From contig NZ_CP114589.1 in NCBI RefSeq assembly GCF_027286325.1, forward strand, positions 186,001-250,000: a stretch of DNA of 64,000 nucleotides, written 5' to 3'. The notes beneath the pieces were generated by a model. It searched no databases. It worked only from the letters and a program-made list of their open reading frames with translations, and had not been told where the DNA came from. Shown piece by piece: positions 44,258 to 55,060 of this stretch (position 1 is the stretch's first letter; each line of letters opens with the position of its first letter). Position numbers and translations under genes: made by a program. Origin of the DNA: Salinivibrio kushneri. GTDB lineage: Bacteria; Pseudomonadota; Gammaproteobacteria; Enterobacterales; Vibrionaceae.

Positions 44258-45028
44258 CTAGGTAAGACTAGAGGTAACCTCGCCGTCATTGTGAGGTATC
44301 GACAGACGATATTGCTCACCATCGTAGTCTAAATTGGTGACTAACCACGCGCTTTGTGATTTAGCGCGATCATCGAATTTAAGCCCACAATGATAACGCT
44401 CACCTTTAAGACGGTGACTCAATATGACCCCACTCATTGTCAACGCTTGGCTGGCTGAGATACCCGTTAGGCTGAGCGTTGCATTTTGTTCCGTATCAAT
44501 CTGTAAGCCAATCGCACGGTAAGAAAACAAGCATCCGCCCACAGAGAGATCGTGTATCGTCACGGGTACGCTCGCTTTACCGTCTATGCTTAACGCTGCA
44601 GAGAGCTCGACATTGAAACGCTTGTCTTGACGCAAAGGCGTGGCGCTAGCACCGTCACGAGCCAGCTCGACACATAAAAGGGTATGGTGGGCTTCCATCA
44701 AGCCTTGTACTTTTCCACCAAATCGAATCAGCGAACCATCGGCAGACACACCATGAAGACGTAACCGATAACCCGCCCCAAAATACTGCTTTTTCTGTTG
44801 GGCCGACAGTTTGGGCAACTGCAGATAACAAAAGCGTTGTCCATCACTGCCAATCAACAACCCATTAAATCGAAACAAAGCTTTAGTTGGCGTCTGAATA
44901 TGAACACGTACCAAGGTTGCCACTCCCAACTTAAGTACCGCGTGAGTGACAGCTAAAGCGATGGCTTCTTGATTTTTTTCTATCGCGTTGAGTTGCTCTT
45001 TTATGGGCATATTGGCGGTCGTTGTCAT
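44258..45028 (-). CDS. PilZ-domain cyclic-di-GMP-binding protein
   Basis: The 256-residue protein has an N-terminal YcgR-like flavodoxin-type region (about 30-125) and a PilZ domain (about 128-245). The cyclic-di-GMP site is intact: R133-x3-R137 (RQDKR) and D160-x-S162-x2-G165 (DLSVGG). It is likely an effector that slows flagella or alters surface behaviour when cyclic-di-GMP rises. It converges with the sugar dehydrogenase gene ten bases away. Four cyclic-di-GMP-related genes are in this window, but none is adjacent. Confidence 0.85.
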   Translation of the reverse strand: MTTTANMPIKEQLNAIEKNQEAIALAVTHAVLKLGVATLVRVHIQTPTKALFRFNGLLIGSDGQRFCYLQLPKLSAQQKKQYFGAGYRLRLHGVSADGSLIRFGGKVQGLMEAHHTLLCVELARDGASATPLRQDKRFNVELSAALSIDGKASVPVTIHDLSVGGCLFSYRAIGLQIDTEQNATLSLTGISASQALTMSGVILSHRLKGERYHCGLKFDDRAKSQSAWLVTNLDYDGEQYRLSIPHNDGEVTSSLT

Positions 45029-45143: not shown

Positions 45144-46150
45144 ATGAAAGGGACGCTAAAACGACTACTGCTCGGCACAATGCTGGTCAGCTCCCCCCTT
45201 GCCCAAGCCAGCGATCAAGCGGAATGTGGCAAGGTCTCTATCGCGGATATGAATTGGAACTCAGCCACACTCATGGCACATGTTGACCAATTTATCTTAG
45301 CGCATGGATATGGGTGTGATGCCTCTCTTGTCCCAGGCGATACCATGCCTACCGGTGTATCGATGACAGAAAAAGGCGAGCCCGATATTGCCCCAGAGTT
45401 TTGGACAAACTCACACAAAGCAATGTTGGATAAAGGCGTGCGAGAGGGGCGATTACGGTATGCAGGCAATGCATTCTCACAAGGGGGCAACGAAGGCTTT
45501 TGGGTACCCAAATATATGGTCGATCAACACCCCGAGCTAGCGACTATTGAAGGTATCAAAGCGCATCCAGAGCTGTTCCCTCATCCCGAAGACCCTGACA
45601 AAGCCGCATTTATGGGTTGCCCGGCGGGATGGACATGTCAAATCTCAGCCCAGCACATTTTTAACGCTCTTGAGTTGGACAAAGCTGGCTTTGAAATTGT
45701 CGACCCAGGCTCTGCAGCAGGCTTAGCTGGCACCATCGTGCGTGCCAATGAGCGAAAAAACCTTGGTTTGGTTATTATTGGGCACCGACCCCTGTAATGG
45801 GAAAATATGAAATGGTTGAGGTCGATTTGGGTGCCGATGTCAATTTAGCGCACTACAAACAGTGTATAACTCAAGCGGACTGTCGCTCACCCCAAGTCAC
45901 CGCATTTCCTACCTCCCCCGTGCACTCACTGACCACAGCATCATTTGCCAAACAAGCGCCCGCGGCATTCAACTATATCAGCCGCCGCGAATACGATAAT
46001 CAGGTAATGAGTGACATGCTGGCTTGGATGGATACCTACCAAGCGGACGGTGAAATAGCCGCAGACGAGTTTCTTCGACGCTATCCAAGCCTTTGGCATC
46101 AGTGGGTCGATACACAAACTGCGCAACGTGTCGAAGACGCACTACGATAA
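45144..46150 (+). pseudogene. Glycine-betaine/proline-type binding protein (ProX/OpuAC), frameshifted
   Basis: A signal peptide (ending PLAQAS) and an OpuAC-type binding protein are encoded from 45144, but the frame ends early at 45797. The next 117 codons (45797-46150, MGKYEMVEVDLG...) continue the same family in the -1 frame. Adding one A to the A6 run at 45755-45760 restores ERKKPWFGYYWAPTPVMGKYE, the conserved ligand-binding stretch, and gives one protein of 335 residues. So the gene is either inactivated by a one-base loss, a sequencing error in a homopolymer, or rescued by slippage. No proV or proW gene is linked. It would capture osmoprotectants. Confidence 0.85.
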
Positions 46151-47970: not shown

Positions 47971-48486
47971 ATGACAACGTACGATCCCAGACACACTATC
48001 CGCAAAAGCCGTTATACCAACCTGCTCATTGTTTTCGCGCTGTTGTGTCTCATGCTGGTCAGTCATGGTGTCAAAGCAAGACCGATCTTGACCCTCTATG
48101 GCGATGTCGCCAAGCAATCGTTTACTCGTGAAGAGCTGATGCAGCTGGCTGACCGCACAATTGAAACGGAGACCCCTTGGACGGAAGGTAGGCAGGTTTT
48201 TCTCGGTGTGTCAGCACAAAAACTGTTGAAGGTTTATGACAAGCAAGGTCATGAATTGAAAGTTCACGCCCTCAATGACTATTGGTCCAAACTATCGACG
48301 GACGAGATTAATAAGTATAACCCTGTTTTCGCCATCAAGAAGAACGGTGAATGGATGCCTATTCGCGACAAAGGGCCGATTTGGGTGATCTACCCATTAT
48401 CCGAATTTAACCAGTACGACAATGAGATTTTACATAGCCGTATGGTTTGGCAAGTGAACCGTATCGAAATATTAGAAAAAGAATAA
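47971..48486 (+). CDS. Periplasmic molybdopterin-domain-like protein (PruR-like)
   Basis: This 171-residue protein has an N-terminal signal or anchor helix (about 18-36). Its domain resembles a reduced oxidoreductase molybdopterin-binding (sulfite-oxidase) fold: LTLYGDV, SFTREELMQLADRTIETETPW, FLGVSAQKLLKVYDKQGHELKVHALNDYW and GPIWVIYPLSEF. It lacks the cysteine typical of sulfite-oxidase-type active sites. In Agrobacterium, a periplasmic protein of this type (PruR) binds pterins and controls the adjacent GGDEF-EAL enzyme DcpA. The same gene order here suggests an equivalent sensor pair. AAGGAG precedes the ATG. Confidence 0.75.
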   Translation: MTTYDPRHTIRKSRYTNLLIVFALLCLMLVSHGVKARPILTLYGDVAKQSFTREELMQLADRTIETETPWTEGRQVFLGVSAQKLLKVYDKQGHELKVHALNDYWSKLSTDEINKYNPVFAIKKNGEWMPIRDKGPIWVIYPLSEFNQYDNEILHSRMVWQVNRIEILEKE

Positions 48487-48589
48487 AAACAGCCTTATTG
48501 GCTCAATCATGGTTTTTGCCTACACCACGAGCCTCTAGACTAACCCATAAGCTGCTAGGCAAAACACAGTAGTAAAGGATTGTATCAGC

Positions 48590-50509
48590 ATGGTAAAGCG
48601 CCCTCTTATCGGTTTCATCATTTTTGTATTTACCACGTTAGCCTTCGCGGCCGCGGCGCTTTACCAGTTTCATAATGCCTACGCACGGCAAGCACTTCAT
48701 ACCCAATTGTCGGCATGGGCTTTAGCACAAATGGAGCTAGAAACCTTAGAGTTTCGCAATGAACTCGCCTTGTACCTCGCCACGGCAACAGACAAACAGT
48801 CTCTTATCCTCTCTTATGACATCCTATGGAGCCGTTATGACACGTTTTTAAGTAGCCAAGAAGCCGCGCCCATGCGTCGCACGTTTGATGCCCAACCTGT
48901 GGTACAACGTGCTTTTCGTTTAATTCAGCAACACGAGCAAGCGGTGTTGAACGGTGACCGTCAGCGGCTTTCTGGCCTTCTTCATGAAATGGATATTGTC
49001 CTTCCTCAGGTACGAAATCTGATGGTAAATAATTTTACTGGCCCGGCGGCTATCGAACAGCGCGCGTTTTTACAGCACCAACTAAAAACCATGTACGCGG
49101 CCATCATTATACTGATGTCGTTATTGATTTATTTCGCCTTTCGCCTCTATCGCAATAGTAGCAGACAGCAAAAAATGGCATGGCACGATAATCTCACCGG
49201 CCTACCCAATCGCAACTACCTCTTGGAATATCTCTACAAAGCCGCCCATAAAAAACAAATACACACCTTGTTATTGATCGATGTTCGTCGTTTTAAAGAC
49301 ATCAATGATCTGATGGGATACGAACAAGGCGATGTCGCGCTAATACAGTTAGCCAATGAATTAAAAAGTATGTGCTTGCCTTATGGTTACCCTTGCGCAC
49401 GGATCAGTAGTAATGAGTTTGCGGTGCTCGCATACACCGACAATCGCCATCTGAGCTTTTTTACTCAACCTTTGTGCAACGCGTTGCGAAGCGCAATTGA
49501 CAATGTTTATCCGGGCCATCGGTTAGCGGTGGCCATTGGCGTCGCAAAGAGCCTCGATTTAGATGATACTGTCATCAGGAATCATCGCCAGTTTGCCAAT
49601 CAACTGTTAAACAACGCGGATCTTGCCCTGATGAAAGCCAAAAGAGCGCCTGTGACGCAAGACAGTGTTGATATATTCAAAGCGGAGTACGAGCAAGAAG
49701 CGAAGCAACGTCGTCAATTACGCGATGAGCTCAAGGCTCACCTTGACGATCCCTATCAAGAGACACTCTATGTATTGTTCCAACCCATGGTGTCATCGGC
49801 GTCAAGGCGCCTCGGTTGTGAGTGTTTGATTCGCTGGGACCATGCTGAGTTTGGTCCCATTGATCCAGCGCTCATCGTCAGTGTCGCCGAAGAATCAGGC
49901 CTGGGTCGGAGGTTAGGTGCCTGGCTTTTGCGTCAAGTTTATCTGGCATTAAACACCGAATGGCAAACCATTAATGACCGCATTGATATTGCGATTAACC
50001 TTTCTGACTCGTTTTTCAACGAGTCCTTGATTGCCGATGTGATCACTGTGTTTGCCGATCACCCAGAACAACGTAAACAACTGATTTTTGAGGTCACAGA
50101 GACGATGACCATCGACGATATTGGTCGCTTCAGTCTGTTGATGAATCAACTGCGCGACGTCGGTATTCGGATAGCGCTCGATGATTTCGGTACCGGTTGG
50201 TCATCTATGTCAGTACTCAGCCACCTGAGCTTTGATAAAGTCAAAATTGATCGCTCATTTGTCACCGGAATGGCCAATACACCACGCCAGCATGTGCTAG
50301 TGGATACCATTTGCCATATGGCGCACCAGCTCGATATTCGCGTGGTTGCCGAGGGCGTCGAAACACAAGAACAACTCACCAGCCTAAAGCAGATGGGCGT
50401 TGACGAATTCCAGGGCTACTTCTTCGCCAAGCCACTGTCCGCACTGGACTTTTATGCTTTCTGCATCGATCACTTAAATCATAAAGACAAGTTATTGATA
50501 GAGGACTAA
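48590..50509 (+). CDS. Membrane GGDEF-EAL protein (DcpA-like), likely phosphodiesterase
   Basis: This 639-residue protein has membrane helices at about 5-25 and 165-185 with a periplasmic sensing region between them. A degenerate GGDEF domain follows, with SSNEF at 273-277 in place of GGDEF. The EAL domain (about 385-635) keeps the catalytic set: E411 (ECL), NLSD, FEVTE, DDFGTG, VKIDRSF, AEGVE and FQGY. Hydrolysis of cyclic-di-GMP is therefore expected and synthesis is not. The PruR-like periplasmic protein is encoded 103 bases upstream and probably regulates it. Its stop overlaps that of the convergent gene by four bases. Confidence 0.88.
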   Translation: MVKRPLIGFIIFVFTTLAFAAAALYQFHNAYARQALHTQLSAWALAQMELETLEFRNELALYLATATDKQSLILSYDILWSRYDTFLSSQEAAPMRRTFDAQPVVQRAFRLIQQHEQAVLNGDRQRLSGLLHEMDIVLPQVRNLMVNNFTGPAAIEQRAFLQHQLKTMYAAIIILMSLLIYFAFRLYRNSSRQQKMAWHDNLTGLPNRNYLLEYLYKAAHKKQIHTLLLIDVRRFKDINDLMGYEQGDVALIQLANELKSMCLPYGYPCARISSNEFAVLAYTDNRHLSFFTQPLCNALRSAIDNVYPGHRLAVAIGVAKSLDLDDTVIRNHRQFANQLLNNADLALMKAKRAPVTQDSVDIFKAEYEQEAKQRRQLRDELKAHLDDPYQETLYVLFQPMVSSASRRLGCECLIRWDHAEFGPIDPALIVSVAEESGLGRRLGAWLLRQVYLALNTEWQTINDRIDIAINLSDSFFNESLIADVITVFADHPEQRKQLIFEVTETMTIDDIGRFSLLMNQLRDVGIRIALDDFGTGWSSMSVLSHLSFDKVKIDRSFVTGMANTPRQHVLVDTICHMAHQLDIRVVAEGVETQEQLTSLKQMGVDEFQGYFFAKPLSALDFYAFCIDHLNHKDKLLIED

Positions 50510-52756: not shown

Positions 52757-53701
52757 TTAACTCGCCACAACTTGGCGCAAACGCTCCTGCACCACGTTGA
52801 CCAGAAGGTCGGGCTGGAATTTAGAGATAAACTGATTACAGCCCACTTTCTCAACCATTGCCTCATTGAAGCTGCCGCTTAATGAGGTGTTCAGTGCAAT
52901 GTATAAATCACTCATCCGGCTGTCAGAACGCACTTCGTGTGTCAGTTTATAACCGTCCATTTCCGGCATTTCCGCATCCGTGATCATCAGCAAAATTTCG
53001 TCACTCACGTTTTTGCCTTCATCGCACCAACTCTTGAGCAAATTCAGTGCTTCAGCACCATTTTTCTTGATGATGCACTCGACACCAAACTGCGACAAGG
53101 TTTCACTGACCTGGGCGCGCGCCGTGGATGAGTCATCGACAACCAGTACTCGCTGTCCGGTCATATAAGGGGTCAGTTGCGGGTCGAGGACATCTTCAGA
53201 AACACCCACTTCATACGCAACGATCTCAGCCAGCACTTTTTCCACATCCACAATTTCCACTAAACGCGTCTGCCCATCAAAGTCTTGGCGAGTAATGGCC
53301 GTTAAGTAATTATTACGCCCTGAGCTGGAAGGCGGCTCCATGATCTCATCCCAGCCCATGTTTTTAATATTGATCACCTGCCCAACGAGGAACGCTTGGA
53401 TGGTGCGGTTATATTCAGTCACGATAACGTTACATTCATCCGACATGCCTATCGAGCCCATGCCGATAGACTGACGTAGGTCAATCACCGGAATAGATTT
53501 ACCGCGAATCATGGCAACGCCTCGGATGTTCGGATGGGAGCCAGGCATTTGGTTGAGCTTTGGCACTTTAATGACTTCACGTACTTTAAACACGTTGATG
53601 GCAAAAGGTTGGGTAGAGCCAAGGTAAAACATTAGAAGCTCGAGGCGGTTTTCACCCACCAATCGTGTCCGCGAATCTACCGAATCTAAAATATTGGTCA
53701 T
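52757..53701 (-). CDS. cheV: Chemotaxis coupling protein CheV (copy 2)
   Basis: This 314-residue protein has a CheW-like domain (about 20-165, LMFYLGSTQPFAINVFKVREVIKVPKLNQMPGSHPNIRGVAMIRGK) and a receiver (about 185-310, VLVVDDSSTARAQVSETLSQFG, acceptor aspartate in MITDAEMPEMDGYKL). It should couple receptors to CheA. It is divergent from a third CheV across a 429-base gap. The two share the NxxPGSHPxxxG motif but differ in much of the rest. Confidence 0.94.
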   Translation of the reverse strand: MTNILDSVDSRTRLVGENRLELLMFYLGSTQPFAINVFKVREVIKVPKLNQMPGSHPNIRGVAMIRGKSIPVIDLRQSIGMGSIGMSDECNVIVTEYNRTIQAFLVGQVINIKNMGWDEIMEPPSSSGRNNYLTAITRQDFDGQTRLVEIVDVEKVLAEIVAYEVGVSEDVLDPQLTPYMTGQRVLVVDDSSTARAQVSETLSQFGVECIIKKNGAEALNLLKSWCDEGKNVSDEILLMITDAEMPEMDGYKLTHEVRSDSRMSDLYIALNTSLSGSFNEAMVEKVGCNQFISKFQPDLLVNVVQERLRQVVAS

Positions 53702-54130
53702 AGTTCACTCAACCGTCGTGTTACTGCTCATTCGCATTTATCCGGACACGTAAATCCTTGTTAACGTGCCTCAATGTTGGGCGCTTTTGTGTCGCGTTGC
53801 ACTCTGACTCTCCAGTCCCGTGACAAAAAGCTTATATCTTTCTTATTTTAGGTAAGATACAGCCACAGGCAACCTCTTTGCATAAGGTGACGCCTAAATG
53901 ACTGGCTCACTTAGCCTATATCTTCCGCTATGTTAACAAAATGCGTGTCCCAAAAGCGTGGTATACACCACGTTTAAATGAGACTATCAATAAGTTTCAA
54001 ATATGAGACAATAGCAGGCAAAAGTTTTATCTTTTCGCCCGTTAGCCCTATCCTTGGGTTAAGAATAGGTGATCAAAGACAACACTGTTACCATACTCAA
54101 AAGACTGACGATAACACGCAGAGTGATGCT
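53702..54130. other. Divergent control region between two cheV genes
   Basis: This 429-base gap contains the near-perfect palindrome CGTGGTATACACCACG (53957-53972), which may be an operator. A reading frame open from 53978 runs into cheV copy 3, but its first 51 codons do not read as protein. No sigma-28 promoter of clear quality was seen. Confidence 0.45.
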
Positions 54131-55060
54131 ATGAAGAGCAAAGCGAATCAAGCACAAGGCATGTTGATGTTCCGCCTCACCGCCACCCAATCTTTCGCGA
54201 TTGGGACGCTGAAGGTGAGAGAAATCATCCCCTTTCAGCCGCTCACGGATTTGCCGGGATCTCACCCAACGGTGATCGGAACCACTAGCTTCCGTGGCAT
54301 CGCCACCCCTGTCATTGATATGGCAAAAGCGATTGGCTACAAACCCGTTGCCAAGTCAGAATGGGAGTCTTGCTATATTATCGTGACTGATTGTCAGCGT
54401 CGCGTCATGGGCTTTTTGGTGCGTGGGATCGACAAGATCAGCGAGTGCGATTGGCGTTCTATTTCAGAGCCACCGGAAACCTTAGGAACACGCGCGTTTC
54501 TTACTGGGGTGATGAACATCGACGATAAGTTGGTGCAACTGCTTGATGTTGAATACATTATGGAGCACATTTTCCCATCAGATCCCGATAAGTTACATCC
54601 CATCCTGGCTGACGTGGATCGTGAGAAACTCAAGCCTATGAATATCCTCTTGGTCGATGATTCACTGACGGCGAGACGGCAATTATCAGAGGCGCTAGAC
54701 AGCATAAACATCCCCTATTTTGTCACCAACAACGGCCTAGAAGCGCTGCAAATGATGAAAAATGCCGCCTCAGCCGGCAAGCCATTTGATATTATTGTCA
54801 GCGATATCGAAATGCCTGGGATTGATGGCTATGAACTCGCCTTTGAGATCCGCAGCGACGATAAACTCGCCGAGGCGTATCTTATCCTCCATACCTCATT
54901 ATCGAGTGATATTAGTGTTGACCGAGCGAAACAAGTCGGGGCACACGAAGCACTAACGAAATTTGATGCCACTGAGCTAGTGCAAGCCATGTTGCGCGGC
55001 GCGATGATGAAAACATCCGGTTCATCGGTCAAGTTAGAAGGCAGTCCAACCGATTACTGA
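54131..55060 (+). CDS. cheV: Chemotaxis coupling protein CheV (copy 3)
   Basis: This 309-residue protein has a CheW-like domain (about 8-155, MLMFRLTATQSFAIGTLKVREIIPFQPLTDLPGSHPTVIGTTSFRG) and a receiver (about 175-295, ILLVDDSLTARRQLSEALDS, acceptor aspartate in IVSDIEMPGIDGYEL). I chose the ATG at 54131 because the CheW domain begins nearby; the longer frame adds 51 residues without family resemblance. The ribosome-binding site is weak. A long inverted repeat follows at 55080. Confidence 0.92.
   Translation: MKSKANQAQGMLMFRLTATQSFAIGTLKVREIIPFQPLTDLPGSHPTVIGTTSFRGIATPVIDMAKAIGYKPVAKSEWESCYIIVTDCQRRVMGFLVRGIDKISECDWRSISEPPETLGTRAFLTGVMNIDDKLVQLLDVEYIMEHIFPSDPDKLHPILADVDREKLKPMNILLVDDSLTARRQLSEALDSINIPYFVTNNGLEALQMMKNAASAGKPFDIIVSDIEMPGIDGYELAFEIRSDDKLAEAYLILHTSLSSDISVDRAKQVGAHEALTKFDATELVQAMLRGAMMKTSGSSVKLEGSPTDY

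Follow-up and report, generated by a model that had tools for sequence, protein, structure and literature searches.

A PruR-DcpA-type gene pair in a Salinivibrio-like genome as the probable hydrolase arm of a two-armed pterin/cyclic-di-GMP system

The gene pair at positions 47971-50509 of the window (the whole stretch of DNA that was analysed, 64,000 nucleotides) is probably the hydrolase arm of a PruR pterin/cyclic-di-GMP (c-di-GMP) system that is divided between two arms, a reading that we would put at a probability of roughly 0.7. In the proposed mechanism, the pocket of an exported PruR, a truncated version of the sulfite-oxidase type, would hold a small pterin in its reduced form; tetrahydromonapterin, supplied by FolX-FolM of this genome, is the likeliest candidate. 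Once loaded, PruR would dock on the membrane protein encoded at 48590-50509, at its four-helix periplasmic domain, and two transmembrane (TM) helices would carry the signal to the GGDEF-EAL module in the cytoplasm: the GGDEF half would be catalytically dead, acting as a linker or possible GTP site, while the EAL half would hydrolyse c-di-GMP and be activated by loaded PruR. A paralogous PruR on the other chromosome would govern a GGDEF-only synthase. What has been observed is the homology, the fold, the motifs, their conservation through the genus, the division of PruR into two lineages and the genes of a ligand pathway. We infer the ligand, the docking of PruR on its receptor, the sign of the response and the enzyme activities, with sign and ligand carried over by analogy from Agrobacterium tumefaciens. 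With the A. tumefaciens sign, loaded PruR would raise the hydrolase and restrain the synthase, so that, if the sign is kept for both arms, both would lower c-di-GMP in the presence of ample reduced pterin; a shortage or oxidation of pterin would raise it.

The pruR open reading frame (47971-48486, + strand) and that of its GGDEF-EAL partner (48590-50509, + strand) are separated by 103 bases, and the sequence confirms both the coordinates and the spacing reported in the first-pass annotation. Its identification of a PruR/DcpA pair is likewise backed by homology, fold and putative pterin-site residues in the first protein, and by the adjoining GGDEF-EAL partner with the W-X7-E receptor domain of the DcpA type. 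Contig C2, which carries the locus, belongs to a Salinivibrio-like genome of the Vibrionaceae, and the closest homologues are in S. siamensis (92%) and S. sharmensis (88%). PruR-DcpA is a published and widespread system, of which V. cholerae is described as having two pairs (PMC13259868), and the published family has more than 5500 members. The pairing goes far beyond chance: it is conserved across Salinivibrio, and the PruR family is present in 213 of 331 Vibrionaceae-family genomes. No RNA (riboswitch) was found near the locus in an Rfam scan, and a promoter/terminator scan at the locus gave matches at chance level only. Flanking the locus in the window are a PilZ-domain protein (44258-45028, - strand), a possible c-di-GMP receptor link, and two CheV proteins (52757-55060), a possible link to chemotaxis.

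The product of 47971-48486 is a PruR by homology and fold, and a candidate pterin-binding protein. Its size (171 residues) and its start fit this family, with an N-terminal Sec signal peptide assigned by eye to residues 1-36 (47971-48078, + strand; cleavage after VKA). A phmmer search against PDB sequences had four strong matches, the solved PruRs 7KP2 (E=1.3e-41) and 7KOS (3.7e-25) followed by 7RKB (5.8e-25) and 7KOM (3.5e-21), the next match having E=0.32. The mature domain, modelled without its signal peptide, gave an AlphaFold2 (AF2) model built from 68 homologues with a mean pLDDT of 94.2. Its top Foldseek match is V. cholerae PruR 7KP2 (TM 0.94; 53% identical, or 55% by sequence alignment), followed by A. 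tumefaciens PruR Atu3496 (7KOS, TM about 0.88) and then by V. vulnificus VV2_1280 and a Klebsiella PruR with neopterin. Below the PruRs come sulfite oxidases and the bacterial SUOX-type oxidoreductase 1XDQ/1XDY (TM 0.6-0.7). The earlier suggestion of a reduced molybdopterin-domain fold agrees with this model, and the structure prediction against PruR and sulfite-oxidase domains that had been proposed as a check, once run, yielded a truncated SUOX-type PruR fold. The three residues assigned to pterin binding in A. tumefaciens PruR (PMC13259868) are all present, as N102 and Y104 (within N102-D103-Y104, 48274-48282, + strand) and W160 (48448-48450, + strand) of the putative pterin site; W160 is invariant across 68 aligned PruRs, while all 19 PruRs of the hydrolase (phosphodiesterase, PDE) arm and all 24 of the synthase (DGC) arm have N102 and Y104.

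Since the fold is of SUOX type, and the S. kushneri copy is annotated “oxidoreductase,” it might be argued that the protein is a true molybdopterin oxidoreductase whose neighbor is unrelated. This is extremely improbable: Pfam gives no match to an oxidoreductase, not even at E<1, identity to a solved pterin-binding PruR is 53% with the tryptophan kept at position 160, and pairing with W-X7-E receptors is conserved. The only cysteine lies within the signal peptide, leaving no Moco-ligating cysteine, and at E<1 a combined Pfam and NCBIfam scan found no family except a spurious Ish1 match. A Moco oxidoreductase reading of 47971-48486 was rejected on the missing Pfam match, W160 and the PruR fold.

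The partner, a 639-residue membrane protein, has the features of a DcpA-type receptor: it is the downstream neighbor, has two TM segments, and carries at W43-X7-E51 (48716-48742, + strand) the W-X7-E motif defined for DcpA/DTB receptors (PMC13259868). The predicted periplasmic four-helix sensor domain between the TM segments (residues ~27-168; 48668-49093, + strand) is all-helical in its AF2 model (pLDDT 87.7). It aligns with the corresponding region of an Ochrobactrum DcpA-type protein (hhalign probability 99.2%, E=2.9e-19) whose adjacent PruR shares 75% identity with A. tumefaciens PruR. The region is about 140 residues plus TMs here, in keeping with the roughly 190 residues of the DcpA type. 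Foldseek matched the domain to generic helical bundles only, and no fold relative is therefore claimed for it. Invariance of the W-X7-E motif in alignments A4-A6 comes partly from the way rows were selected and is not counted as evidence; a conserved arginine nearby (R81/R82) played no part in that selection.

The output half of the partner points to phosphodiesterase activity only. Its GGDEF domain (residues 197-353, Pfam E=8e-22; 49178-49648, + strand) is predicted to be non-catalytic: the loop S273-S274-N275-E276-F277 (SSNEF; 49406-49420, + strand) retains neither of the glycines and lacks the catalytic acid. The EAL domain (residues 390-615, Pfam E=8e-62; 49757-50434, + strand) keeps a complete predicted catalytic set, with E-x-L-x-R present as ECLIR (E411; 49820-49834, + strand) along with the N, E, DD, K, E and Q residues. 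The PDE-only output previously proposed thus stands as a prediction from sequence, and the combination that would mark a dual-competence DcpA, with GGDEF and EAL both intact, is absent: the loop is SSNEF and the EAL complete. The loop is degenerate in all seven Salinivibrio copies (SSNEF in five, counting the window, NSNEF in one and SGNKF in one, the G093 copy, where the second acid is lost too), and the EAL catalytic residues are complete in the six readable Salinivibrio copies and in all Vibrio PDE-arm copies. Thirteen other PDE-only copies have GADEF or GADQF (12) or GSDEF (1), so that the wiring described in the first-pass annotation as distinct is not an isolated case: loss of the GGDEF motif is common to most of the Vibrionaceae PDE-arm lineage.

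Could the partner nevertheless be an ordinary dual-function DcpA, its SSNEF half keeping some cyclase activity and PruR biasing it between synthesis and hydrolysis? Gene order and receptor domain are those of DcpA, the GGDEF domain is under purifying selection, and the motif is intact in two Vibrio relatives of the same PDE-arm clade (L024 and L041). Against these stand the loss of both glycines and the catalytic acid, with the second acid also gone in the SGNKF copy, and the effect of a glycine-to-alanine change at one of these glycines: a GADEF mutation of V. fischeri VF_0985 drastically cut its cyclase effects, leaving PDE-like behavior (PMC11575326). Residual cyclase activity is in our estimate highly improbable. 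The low dN/dS of the dead GGDEF domain (0.03-0.045), comparable to that of the EAL domain (0.04-0.06) and the periplasmic region (0.02-0.055), suggests instead that the domain is kept for structure or regulation. The GGDEF half of FimX senses GTP (PMC8846402), and a similar role is possible by analogy here.

A different kind of objection is that the partner may be no enzyme at all. LapD, a membrane protein, has degenerate domains and works across the membrane, and the LapD profile matches the partner at E=1e-36, so that a LapD-like c-di-GMP receptor or scaffold might be envisaged. The full set of EAL catalytic residues, there in all six readable Salinivibrio copies and every Vibrio PDE-arm copy, makes this very unlikely, as do the best NCBIfam matches, which are phosphodiesterases, though none reaches its cut-off. 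Nor is the partner of the PruR-DTB kind, as a Pfam scan found no histidine kinase output in it. The reading preferred for the partner is a DcpA-type receptor with a predicted PDE-only output.

At the level of the genome, the predicted output is not one-way, since there is a second PruR, whose partner has a GGDEF domain alone, with its motif intact. A PruR search of the same genome found this paralogue (PruR2) on contig C1, the other chromosome. Downstream of it comes a 418-residue membrane protein that lacks an EAL and whose single GGDEF domain has an intact loop (RLGGDEF). Four of the seven other Salinivibrio genomes share this layout, with PruR2 in an unbroken frame; among all eight, two have the hydrolase-arm locus alone (G094 and G096), and one (G091) is the sole case with no PruR. 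In the draft genome G096 the PDE-arm partner (L012) is broken into three frames. The receptor domains of the PDE and DGC arms are homologous (hhalign probability 98.2%, E=4.7e-14). In the present genome PruR2 itself (L007 4133-4667, G000:C1) is split into two frames at a run of seven G, as against six in S. siamensis, and the synthase arm may thus be without its sensor, unless the break is an assembly error. A similar one-base difference at a homopolymer junction divides the window's glycine-betaine binding protein (OpuAC, 45144-46150) into two frames, the gene being intact in two sister species, which makes an assembly error at the PruR2 G run a real possibility.

Partner classes were assigned at 123 PruR loci. 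The 61 from Vibrionaceae were chosen partly by score, so that their proportions are not frequencies: 19 partners are PDE-only, 17 GGDEF-only (motif intact), 10 with a dead GGDEF and no continuous EAL (including the broken G096 copy), 6 dual, 1 a GGDEF with a dead EAL, and 8 kinase or other. The 62 from elsewhere comprise 46 kinase or other, 8 dual, 6 GGDEF-only (the assignment being uncertain for several) and 2 with a dead EAL, and none among them is PDE-only. A class-wide sample proved poor in PruR (20 of 369), and a phylum sample (60 of 399) was therefore used instead. Across Vibrionaceae, PruR phylogeny parts the two arms: in a PruR-only tree of 66 rows the PDE arm forms a clade of 22 rows (support 100/98) and the DGC arm a group of 24 (96/87), and output labels require 12 changes, compared with 39.3 in shuffles. 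A GGDEF-domain tree that placed a dead GGDEF-only group beside Salinivibrio was flagged as a possible long-branch join and dropped.

Other partner types came to light in the survey. In one Vibrio subgroup (L038, L045, L046, L117-L120 and L123) the partners lack an EAL and have a degenerate GGDEF (e.g., SGSQF), with neither c-di-GMP activity predicted; those at L003 5387-7384, L047 and L081, with an intact GGDEF and a degenerate EAL, are a mirror image of the window protein. Two V. cholerae relatives show a frame change in the PDE-arm receptor at a run of eight T near the second TM segment (L018 near 1748, L019 near 1862), relatives having intact copies; it could be phase variation, slippage or error. 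PruR genes also occur on 639 plasmid records (e.g., NZ_CP097838 and NZ_CP123849), many from Klebsiella, E. coli or Salmonella and 399 of them predicted to be conjugative; on two plasmids with annotated neighbors, PruR adjoins kinase-type ATP-binding proteins.

Do the two arms act together? A second PruR is present in 16 of the 24 genomes seen with a PDE-arm PruR, and in all 15 readable cases, the closest V. cholerae relatives among them, it is partnered by a GGDEF-only protein whose motif is intact. As for contact between each PruR and its receptor, the distances among PruRs in 12 two-armed genomes follow those of their own receptors (r 0.94/0.94) more closely than those of the other arm's (0.76/0.80), and within Vibrio the gap widens (0.95/0.97 vs. 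0.58/0.68); gene linkage adds to this tracking, which makes it supportive rather than decisive. Another possibility is that the window locus is a stand-alone PDE-only switch, with the second PruR/synthase pair responding to another pterin or redox state and no coordination between the arms. Identity between the PruR1 and PruR2 lineages is only about 35%, four positions (61, 68, 82 and 120) are specific to the arm, the loci are on different chromosomes, and the hydrolase arm stands alone in two Salinivibrio genomes. However, the arms do not differ at the pterin-site residues N102, Y104 and W160, and both arms occur together in most of the PDE-arm genomes examined; uncoordinated arms are, on balance, rather unlikely, albeit the most serious competitor to the two-armed reading.

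A candidate ligand could be made in the cell itself. Genes for a FolX epimerase and a FolM dihydromonapterin reductase lie side by side in the genome, which also encodes PhhA phenylalanine hydroxylase and PhhB pterin carbinolamine dehydratase, all four above NCBIfam cut-offs; by annotation, FolX-FolM with PhhAB is the predicted tetrahydromonapterin route. Such a route has been proposed for signaling in A. tumefaciens (2026 review, PMC13259868).

More broadly, and more tentatively, at somewhat below even odds, a bifunctional PruR-DcpA system may have been split in Vibrionaceae into hydrolase and synthase pairs, each with a PruR reading the same periplasmic pterin pool, which would exert a push-pull on c-di-GMP, the dead GGDEF being kept as an allosteric domain. 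No statement of a hydrolase-only/synthase-only division of the Vibrionaceae pairs was found in the texts read, a set without the primary PruR (PNAS 2024) and DcpA (mBio 2015) papers. That pterins act as signals in the periplasm or outside the cell is a recent proposal, based mainly on one dual-function A. tumefaciens enzyme, in which synthesis and hydrolysis are inseparable without mutations. With a PruR of its own for each activity, the effect of loaded PruR on a pure hydrolase and on a pure synthase could be asked separately, and a host equipped to make monapterin itself, in contrast to V. cholerae as the 2026 review portrays it, would make the question of a self-made ligand testable.

Several known systems resemble this one in part. 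LapD-type receptors have a degenerate, non-hydrolysing EAL, whereas that of the window protein, as read from its sequence, has its catalytic residues complete. In HmsC-HmsD and similar pairs a periplasmic protein likewise controls a membrane c-di-GMP enzyme, but the sensor of HmsC-HmsD is unrelated to PruR and HmsD makes c-di-GMP. FimX-type enzymes also join a degenerate GGDEF to an EAL, without a periplasmic sensor pair. In PruR-DTB systems (L004 and many other proteobacterial loci), PruR adjoins a protein whose periplasmic domain is also of this type, but the output is a histidine kinase. V. cholerae PruR (7KP2) and its relatives (G314, G193, G192 and G196) have both a PDE-arm partner and a second PruR with a GGDEF-only partner; there the PDE-arm loop is GADEF (with EAL) rather than SSNEF, and V. 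cholerae is without a PruA-type reductase according to the 2026 review (PMC13259868), where the present genome has FolX-FolM. A. tumefaciens PruR (Atu3496)-DcpA shares the two-gene order, the exported PruR with its fold and pterin residues, the W-X7-E periplasmic receptor and the GGDEF-EAL output, but there DcpA has both activities, whereas in the window protein the GGDEF is predicted to be dead (SSNEF) and the putative cyclase lies in a second PruR-linked protein.
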